DNA of 64,000 nt, from NCBI RefSeq assembly GCF_007750395.1, contig NZ_CP036281.1:5975001-6039000 (forward strand), read 5' to 3'. Of the stretch, positions 22,810-26,829 are shown one piece after another. Numbering within the stretch: the first letter of the stretch is position 1; each line of letters begins with the position of its first letter. The notes beneath the pieces were generated by a model that worked only from the letters and a program-made list of their open reading frames with translations, was not told where the DNA came from and did not search any database. Made by a program: the position numbers and the translations under genes. The DNA comes from Polystyrenella longa. GTDB taxonomy: Bacteria > Planctomycetota > Planctomycetia > Planctomycetales > Planctomycetaceae.

Positions 22810-24027
22810 ATGTACACAAAACTGATTGGCCATGTCGATTCTGACTGCTTTTACGTCTCGGCGGAACGAGTACGCAGGAGCCATTTGCAGAACGTGCCCT
22901 GCGGGGTTCTTGGCAACCAGGGGGCGTGTGTGATCGCCAAGAGCTATGAGCTGAAAGCGGATGGGGTTAAGACGGGAATGCCCATTTGGGAGGCGGTGAA
23001 ATATTCGGCTCACGCGGTCTTCGTTAAACGAGACTTCCGTTGGTATGAAGTGGTCTCCAAACGGATGTTGGACTTGCTCAAAACCGTGTCTCCCTCTGTT
23101 GAGTATTACTCCATTGATGAAATGTTCTTCGATGCAAACCAACTTCCCCGGATTTATAACTGCTCCATGGAAAAGGCAGCCTACTGCTTGCAAGAACAGA
23201 TTCGCGAAAAGGTGGGGATTCCGGTTTCCATTGGGATCGCCCCATCAAAAACACTCGCCAAGCTCGGCTCCGATACCGCAAAGCCTTATGGTTGTCGTGT
23301 GTTATTGAACTCGGATGATGATTTTCTAAAGTCGCAACCTGTCGGGGAACTTTGCGGAGTGGGTGGGAAGAGTAACCTGAAACTACAGGCCCAGGGAATC
23401 CACACTTGTTACGACTTCATCCAGGCTGACCGTATCAAAATCCGGAACCTGTTAACGGTTAAAGGAGAGGCTCTCTGGTACGAACTGCATGGCGAATCCG
23501 TTTGTCCCATCGTGACGCGCCGACCGACCCACAAAGCGATTTCCAGAGGAGGGTCGATTGGACACAAGTCAAAAGACTGGAACAAAATCACCGGCTGGTT
23601 AACCCGCAACATAGAGCGGCTCTCGGAAGCGTTGAACGCAGCGCAGTTGCATACTCATTTACTCACGCTCTCGATTCAGTTTGAAGACCATACCGGTTGG
23701 GGCCAGACAGTAAAACTGGAAGAACCGACTTCCGATTCCGGGGATCTCCTCGGTGCGGCCAAGCAGATGATGTCCTGTATGCCCCTGGATCAATGCGTTT
23801 CTTATATGCACTTAATCGCTGATCGTTTAACGCCTCACGGGTTAGTTCAAAAATCATTATTCAAACAACGCGCACCCTCGGCGATCGATCAACTCAAAGA
23901 AGCAGTAAACACCAAACTGGGAAGGTTTGTCATTCGCAGTGGTGACACCCTCGAAGTGAATGATCTTTACGGAGACGAGGCGAACAATTACGAGATCTGT
24001 GACGTATCTGGAAAAATGTGTTTTTAA
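22810..24027 (+). CDS. Y-family translesion DNA polymerase (UmuC/DinB type)
   Basis: About 405 residues. The palm opens with HVDSDCFYVSAERV (catalytic Asp), and YSIDEMFFD near residue 100 supplies the acidic pair of the active site. IGIAPSKTLAKLGSD and the helix-hairpin-helix region GELCGVGGKSNLKLQAQGI follow, then a little-finger domain from about 240. These enzymes copy past DNA lesions and are usually damage-induced. Length suits UmuC (about 420) better than DinB (about 350). The next gene, 8 nt downstream, is a short SRAP-like protein, so the pair looks like a damage-response operon. The start has an oddly distant ribosome site. Confidence 0.92.
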   Translation: MYTKLIGHVDSDCFYVSAERVRRSHLQNVPCGVLGNQGACVIAKSYELKADGVKTGMPIWEAVKYSAHAVFVKRDFRWYEVVSKRMLDLLKTVSPSVEYYSIDEMFFDANQLPRIYNCSMEKAAYCLQEQIREKVGIPVSIGIAPSKTLAKLGSDTAKPYGCRVLLNSDDDFLKSQPVGELCGVGGKSNLKLQAQGIHTCYDFIQADRIKIRNLLTVKGEALWYELHGESVCPIVTRRPTHKAISRGGSIGHKSKDWNKITGWLTRNIERLSEALNAAQLHTHLLTLSIQFEDHTGWGQTVKLEEPTSDSGDLLGAAKQMMSCMPLDQCVSYMHLIADRLTPHGLVQKSLFKQRAPSAIDQLKEAVNTKLGRFVIRSGDTLEVNDLYGDEANNYEICDVSGKMCF

Positions 24028-24035
24028 GGTCCCCT

Positions 24036-24449
24036 ATGTGCGACATCATTTCTGTTACCTGGCGTCAACTGCCGGAAGCTCTCATCAACCAGAGCGGGTT
24101 ATCTGCATTCCGTCGTGGGAGTGGTGACCTGGAATATCATTTTTCATTTAAGCAGCGTTCTCCCTGTCTCCCTGTTTGGACTGAGGGGCAACTCAGCATT
24201 CTCCCCTGGGCAGGGTATTGCCCACGGGAATCGCTCGATGCAGGATGCTGGTCCGAACGTCAACCAGAATCCGTAGAGATTGTTGCCACCCTGTGTTGCG
24301 ACAAAGGGATCTGGTTTACGGTCAACGAAGGGATCAGAGGGGTACTCGTTGCCCGTCGTGTTTATGTCATCACTGCACCGGCATCTCACTACTACCGAAT
24401 CATGACCCGACACGATCGCATGCCCGTCTTGATTGGGGAATCGATATGA
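24036..24449 (+). CDS. Short SRAP/YedK(HMCES)-like protein
   Basis: About 137 residues, starting MCDII so that Cys2 would be the N-terminal nucleophile after Met removal, as in SRAP proteins that crosslink to abasic sites in single-stranded DNA. Near the end VYVITAPASHYYRI then HDRMPVLI matches the family segment holding the active-site His. The middle retains LPWAGYCP (like the FWGYAPG loop) and VNEGIRG, but the RYNxAP segment with the Asn is not recognisable, and the protein stops right after HDRMP whereas the family usually runs to about 220 residues. TAAGGT precedes the ATG by 5 nt. Truncated or minimal version; DNA-damage role inferred from family and neighbour. Confidence 0.65.
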   Translation: MCDIISVTWRQLPEALINQSGLSAFRRGSGDLEYHFSFKQRSPCLPVWTEGQLSILPWAGYCPRESLDAGCWSERQPESVEIVATLCCDKGIWFTVNEGIRGVLVARRVYVITAPASHYYRIMTRHDRMPVLIGESI

Positions 24450-26745: not shown

Positions 26746-26829
26746 CTGCGTTTGATTTCTCTGCGTTTGATTTCTCTGGGTTTGATTTCACTGGGTTTGA
26801 TTTCACTGAGTTTGATTTCACTGAGTTTT
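26746..26829. repeat. 15-bp minisatellite upstream of the DUF1549 gene
   Basis: Five head-to-tail 15-bp units of the form CTGnGTTTGATTTCn plus a partial sixth. Units 1-2 are identical, 3-4 are identical, and 5-6 share a third variant, so position 4 steps C-C-G-G-A-A. The array stays open in frame on both strands, but no start signal supports translation. It lies 60 nt before the DUF1549 start and may affect expression or simply be slippage-prone DNA. Confidence 0.9.

Follow-up and report, generated by a model that had tools for sequence, protein, structure and literature searches.

What does a gene for a short SRAP-like protein do directly behind the gene for a Y-family DNA polymerase? The question is raised by a 64,000 nt stretch of Polystyrenella longa DNA (the window), which is set in a 6.1 Mb single-contig genome. 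A first-pass annotation had described the two genes as a minimal unit for lesion bypass and abasic-site shielding, in which a truncated SRAP-like protein follows the polymerase. The features that define this locus are:

22810..24027, + strand: 405-aa Y-family DNA polymerase with intact active-site motifs (ORF, Pfam, PDB match and motifs)
23848..23862, + strand: QKSLF, beta-clamp-binding-like motif in the polymerase (position read from the sequence)
23893..23943, + strand: LKEAVNTKLGRFVIRSG, polymerase segment that is RecA-NT-like by eye (hhalign not significant)
23962..24024, + strand: polymerase C-terminal tail, DLYGDEANNYEICDVSGKMCF (tails of relatives; co-occurrence with the small protein)
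24026..24029, + strand: AAGG on the polymerase stop codon, 6 nt ahead of the small-protein ATG (sequence reading)
24036..24449, + strand: mini-SRAP protein, 137 aa (sequence, fold and family)

The polymerase matched the Pfam families IMS (E 2.1e-37) and IMS_C (E 4.5e-12), and its top PDB sequence match was a DNA polymerase IV (7yll, E 2.8e-35). The acidic active-site motifs HVDSDCFY (aa 8-15) and SIDE (aa 101-104) were both located, and a spacer of 8 nt separates the ORF from the small-protein gene, confirming the motifs and the gap that had been reported. The AAGG that overlaps the stop codon is a possible coupled ribosome-binding site for the second gene. The QKSLF segment, which we take to be beta-clamp-binding-like, has similar LF segments in many relatives. 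Homology of LKEAVNTKLGRFVIRSG to RecA-NT was not significant when compared by hhalign with 19 RecA N-termini from relatives (probability 0.1).

Fold and family of the small protein

The small protein has the sequence pattern MCDII...HDRMP over its 137 aa, falls 77 residues below the 214-position SRAP model, and does not contain the RYNxAP Asn segment, all as the first-pass annotation had described, including its estimate of about 80 missing residues. The label "truncated" given there is nevertheless misleading, since short length is normal for the family. Relatives span 136-177 residues and most have 153-157; a small number of members with 136-138 residues, the window protein among them, lack one further loop. 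Sequence searches against Pfam, NCBIfam, PHROGs and the PDB returned no credible family for the small protein. None of 46 members matched PF02586 up to E 10, with HMMER filters dropping most matches above about 0.1. Comparison of the small protein with full SRAP by sequence-only hhalign was weak (probability 15; 30-34 in three further settings and 0.02 in a fourth), and its C-terminal half gave 69 and 0.06. The case for SRAP kinship rests on the fold. Profile matches to beta-lactamase inhibitor protein II (E 0.0002-0.0003) were rejected, as they cover 43 positions around a WG...P motif that is repeated there.

We built a structure model from a 46-row alignment, taken from 55 rows after removal of near-duplicates, of one sequence lacking a start and of those beginning with GTG or TTG. 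The model was confident (mean pLDDT 94.8, pTM 0.88). Foldseek placed HMCES, BT_1218, HMCES and BB2244 at PDB ranks 1-4 (probability 0.82-0.99, E 0.01-0.11), with only noise below them. With a second structural aligner, 20 of 947 chains scored Z 2 or higher, and all 15 entries listed were SRAP proteins (HMCES, YedK). These SRAP matches reached Z 8.3-10.1 over 112-126 of the 137 residues, covering model residues 2-135. By the aligner's own caution, a Z of 7-8 is possible without kinship; we find the assignment convincing because SRAP entries alone appear among the matches listed. YedK beyond residue 169 had no counterpart in the structural alignment. A viral structure library gave no clear match to the model (best probability 0.72, E 0.16). 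The structure prediction that had been proposed as a check on the first-pass reading supports a SRAP-like fold for the small protein.

Of the 170 genomes examined from the same family, 30 carried the small protein. Across 397 genomes of the class, a broader profile detected it in 107, and it was found in 13 of 392 genomes of a phylum sample; both of these surveys scored at most nine candidates per genome, so that misses are possible. A canonical SRAP (PF02586) match was present in 29 of the 30 carrier genomes of the family, the window's own included (one of the 29 has an internal stop), and for at least 5 of the 30 it is the direct neighbour of the pair. Among 54 loci retrieved from named databases, four have a full-length SRAP gene beside the polymerase and mini-SRAP pair: L105 (1023-1646), L088 (3186-3827), L082 (3044-3721) and L094 (2911-3696). 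More divergent paralogs occur in two related genomes (L061 2045-2479, L062 1983-2540, L063 1887-2378), at loci from which a polymerase match is absent.

Linkage to the polymerase and its C-terminal tail

The first-pass annotation had proposed a survey of whether short forms always follow this polymerase. In a first set of loci (L001-L030), drawn from the 170 family genomes, all 30 small genes lay directly behind a polymerase on the same strand. In the second set, the 54 database loci (L066-L119), which overlaps the first in organisms, the polymerase was adjacent in 51: 47 pairs were on the same strand within 195 nt and 4 were divergent. At one further locus the polymerase lay 2.7 kb away, and at two it was not found. 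One of these two (L101) is near a contig end, and the other (L107) is an exception, with no polymerase within about 5 kb on either side. The pairing is more than chance, and adjacency holds for most members. It is not strict, however, since stand-alone copies exist.

By title, 51 of the 54 database loci come from planctomycetes, two from a "bacterium" and one from Candidatus Peribacteria; the nearest pair-carrying relative of the window is L105 (Planctomycetaceae). The Peribacteria pair (L071 2306-4152) is on a contig binned outside Planctomycetota and branches with a planctomycete sequence, suggesting that the two genes were transferred together, provided the bin is not mixed. At one of three Paludisphaera soli loci, the partner polymerase match is split over two frames (L118 3673-5549).

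The polymerase partners share a C-terminal tail of the form IYxDxANxYDICDVxGKxCF, with a Cys-Phe terminus in all 53 tails printed. A tail profile made from 24 of these 53 matched 31 of the 170 family genomes, namely the 30 that carry the small protein plus G007, where the match is confined to positions 2-23, ahead of the tail proper. Among the 397 class genomes, 103 had both tail and small protein, 4 the small protein only, 2 the tail only (G007 and G626) and 288 neither. The small-only genomes comprise two with near-full-length copies (G569, G620) and two with partial copies (G673, G695), and one genome counted among the 103 (G574) matched the tail profile at positions 2-36 only. Tail and small protein were each found in 54 of 185 genera. 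Because the genomes are related, the Fisher value overstates the independence of this co-occurrence, which is partly a product of linkage and common descent. Seven carrier genomes examined have two Y-family genes each and a single tail match each, so tail and small protein are specific to one polymerase of the carrier genome. The linkage and the co-occurring tail together support the two-gene unit that the first-pass annotation had proposed.

The docking of the tail was not supported by a single-chain AF2 model of a relative's read-through chain of polymerase and small protein: overall pTM was 0.80, and the tail end and linker (402-421) had pLDDT below 50.

Of 48 regions upstream of polymerases (window included), 9 contained a LexA-like box, TGAACNNNNGTTCA, with no more than one mismatch, against 0.3 expected. 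The box had been spotted by eye in relatives before the test, and one of the 48 regions (L080) is invalid, its polymerase start being off the contig. The window itself has no LexA-like box above chance (best 3 mismatches, p 0.34). The box was also seen with at most one mismatch upstream of relatives' recA (2 of the 19 scored out of 20, against 0.1 expected) and lexA (3 of the 16 scored out of 20, against 0.1 expected), which are few, and several start codons used in this scoring were guessed. On a Methylophaga thalassica plasmid, a distant relative stands in the order lexA, polymerase (annotated DNA polymerase IV), small protein.

Distant mini-SRAP relatives, annotated as hypothetical, are found on Methylophaga, Pseudomonas and Nitrosomonas plasmids (L197 3974-4414, L196 3986-4399, L199 3519-3929, L200 3501-3929, L201 3483-3887). 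For four of these five, the polymerase was absent from flanks of 3.5-4 kb, in which the gene table is incomplete. Three of four aligned plasmid-relative sequences have IHxRWP near the place of HDRMP. No homolog of the small protein came up when the planctomycete profile was run against IMG/VR or when two queries were run against GenBank phages, and a weak IMG/VR match to a plasmid relative was discarded, with no credible ORF of the family nearby. Elsewhere in the window, at 26746-26828, a 15-bp unit is repeated in tandem 5.5 times (95% matches) inside short ORFs on both strands.

Active-site residues across the family

Residue counts refer to 54 members, the window protein and 53 of the 54 database loci; L101 was left out, being without a start codon. 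Three codons of the window gene are of particular interest:

24039..24041, + strand: Cys2, the SRAP crosslinking residue (kept in 40 of 54 members)
24300..24302, + strand: Asp89, putatively equivalent to YedK Glu105 (acidic, D or E, in all 54 members)
24411..24413, + strand: His126 of HDRMP, counterpart of YedK His160 (His in 9 of 54)

The first-pass annotation had called Cys2 and the His conserved. Both are indeed present in the window protein, but across the family neither is constant, and all 9 members with the HDRMP His also have Cys2. The state of Cys2 changes 6 times by parsimony on the tree, with at least 3 of the changes forced by well-supported branches. His126 aligned with the SRAP His in all five alignments. 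Asp89 was paired with YedK Glu105 in one of five sequence alignments, the other four not supporting it, and its proposed equivalence to Glu105 is an inference from strand order and spacing from the IPA motif. If Asp89 does equal Glu105, the core triad is retained in the window protein. The position of YedK Asn75, paired in four of the five alignments, is Tyr in the window protein and Trp in 51 of 54 members. The window protein resembles the SRAP superfamily (YedK, HMCES; Pfam PF02586) in its fold over residues 2-135, its N-terminal Met-Cys and its HDRMP, whereas the mini-SRAP family differs in length, in the missing RYNxAP, in the Tyr or Trp at the Asn75 position, in the lack of PF02586 matches among 46 members and in the inconstancy of Cys2 and His.

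With the start codons used here, 45 of 54 members have Cys, Ser or Ala as residue 2, and the other 9 have F, L, M, D or Y. The initiator Met is, as a rule, removed when residue 2 is Cys, Ser or Ala. In YedK, according to PMC9436759, Cys2 and Glu105 are the most important residues, loss of His160 costs about tenfold, E105D has a mild effect and N75A a very modest one, at internal sites. The same paper describes the C2A variant as a lyase whose dependence on Glu105 far exceeds that on His160.

A subunit of the polymerase or an abasic-site protein

Our preferred reading, which we consider reasonably likely, is that the adjacent Y-family polymerase has the 137-aa protein as an accessory subunit with a SRAP fold, which plays a UmuD'-like role in a complex resembling Pol V. 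The small protein would bind the polymerase, probably at the conserved C-terminal tail, and would control or target it at damaged DNA. The two would act as a bypass complex in which the SRAP-derived protein takes the part of UmuD' and the polymerase that of UmuC. Like Pol V (UmuD'/UmuC), the locus pairs a Y-family polymerase that has a C-terminal tail with a small partner encoded next door; unlike in Pol V, the partner has a SRAP fold and not the UmuD' fold, and RecA-NT homology of the polymerase was not significant by hhalign. In a published model (PMC11791011), the last residues of UmuC, terminal carboxyl included, touch UmuD'. The computed observations behind our reading are the SRAP fold, the pairing, the tail co-occurrence, the intact polymerase motifs, purifying selection and the drift of SRAP catalytic residues. 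The LexA-like boxes ahead of relatives' polymerases and the plasmid row of lexA, polymerase and small protein speak for an SOS setting. We favour a structural or regulatory subunit because the partner is kept more strictly across the family than the crosslinking residues are. Since the small protein is cut down and most relatives have lost part of its chemistry, it probably helps the polymerase as a subunit and is not a stand-alone DNA shield. Counting against the subunit reading are the ability of the small protein to stand alone (L107 and four of the five plasmid relatives), the near-full-length copies without a tail match in G569 and G620, the low-confidence tail end in the read-through model and the chance-level LexA score of the window.

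A different view, to which we give a minor share of belief, is that the protein is a working minimal abasic-site shield, with Cys2 covalently capturing abasic sites and the neighbouring polymerase seeing to the bypass of other lesions. The window protein retains Cys2, His126 and an acidic residue at Asp89, and abasic-site capture may be possible in members that, like it, keep Cys2 and His126. Losing the Asn is not necessarily fatal, because in YedK the effect of N75A is very modest at internal sites (PMC9436759); that of E105D is likewise modest. Against a shield, Cys2 is missing in 14 of 54 members and the His in 45, and most such members keep the polymerase adjacent. Moreover, nearly all carrier genomes of the family contain a canonical SRAP match, it is unproven that Asp89 corresponds to Glu105, and the part of YedK beyond residue 169 is unmatched.

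An intermediate reading, also unlikely in our estimate, is a reduced abasic-capturing subunit that is still reactive in lineages like this one, tying the polymerase to the lesion, and elsewhere has a structural role only. If this were true, the active-site drift seen among members of a single paired family would offer a natural gradation leading from enzyme to scaffold.

An abasic-site lyase or Schiff-base sensor, in which a free N-terminal amine and an invariant acid act and the thiol is optional, appears improbable. It is consistent with the D or E at position 89 in every member, with residues at position 2 that are mostly compatible with initiator Met removal, and with the Glu105-dependent lyase activity of YedK C2A reported in PMC9436759. 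The initiator Met would, however, be kept in the 9 members with F, L, M, D or Y at residue 2, unless their starts are miscalled, and this reading too needs the unproven equivalence of Asp89 and Glu105. That the small gene is a SRAP gene which has decayed or suffered a frameshift and no longer has a function is very hard to credit: SRAP residues have been lost and a few partial copies in other genomes, some with internal stops, do exist, but the ORF is kept in 30 family genomes whose main matches are free of internal stops, relatives are under purifying selection (dN/dS 0.04-0.23 in four pairs, the window's nearest pair being saturated at synonymous sites), the fold is confident, and relatives' genes are short too, contrary to the frameshift that the first-pass annotation had named as its refutation.

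SRAP and its SOS contexts were defined by Aravind and colleagues (PMC3765255), and for Y-family polymerases both the RecA-NT motif and the C-terminal tails have been described (PMC6511836). A Y-family polymerase has been specifically linked to SRAP-related proteins, proposed as putative polymerase-binding regulatory subunits (PMC12926913), so that a pairing of polymerase and SRAP-type protein is known in outline. The passages of PMC12926913 on this link give no organisms, lengths or residues, and four planctomycete genera looked up by name do not appear in its main text; its SRAP-related group is likely to be the mini-SRAP family. Among the results listed by literature searches, no further description of the pair appeared beyond the papers cited here. 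Relative to the accessible literature, what is new is the drift of residues, the tail common to the polymerases and the distribution of the mini-SRAP family.

If our preferred reading of a polymerase subunit is right, a fold for crosslinking abasic sites has been re-used as a subunit of a polymerase, as an alternative to UmuD' in controlling error-prone synthesis. A two-gene system with natural variants that have or lack the crosslinking residues would allow a direct test of whether the capture of abasic sites competes or cooperates with translesion synthesis.
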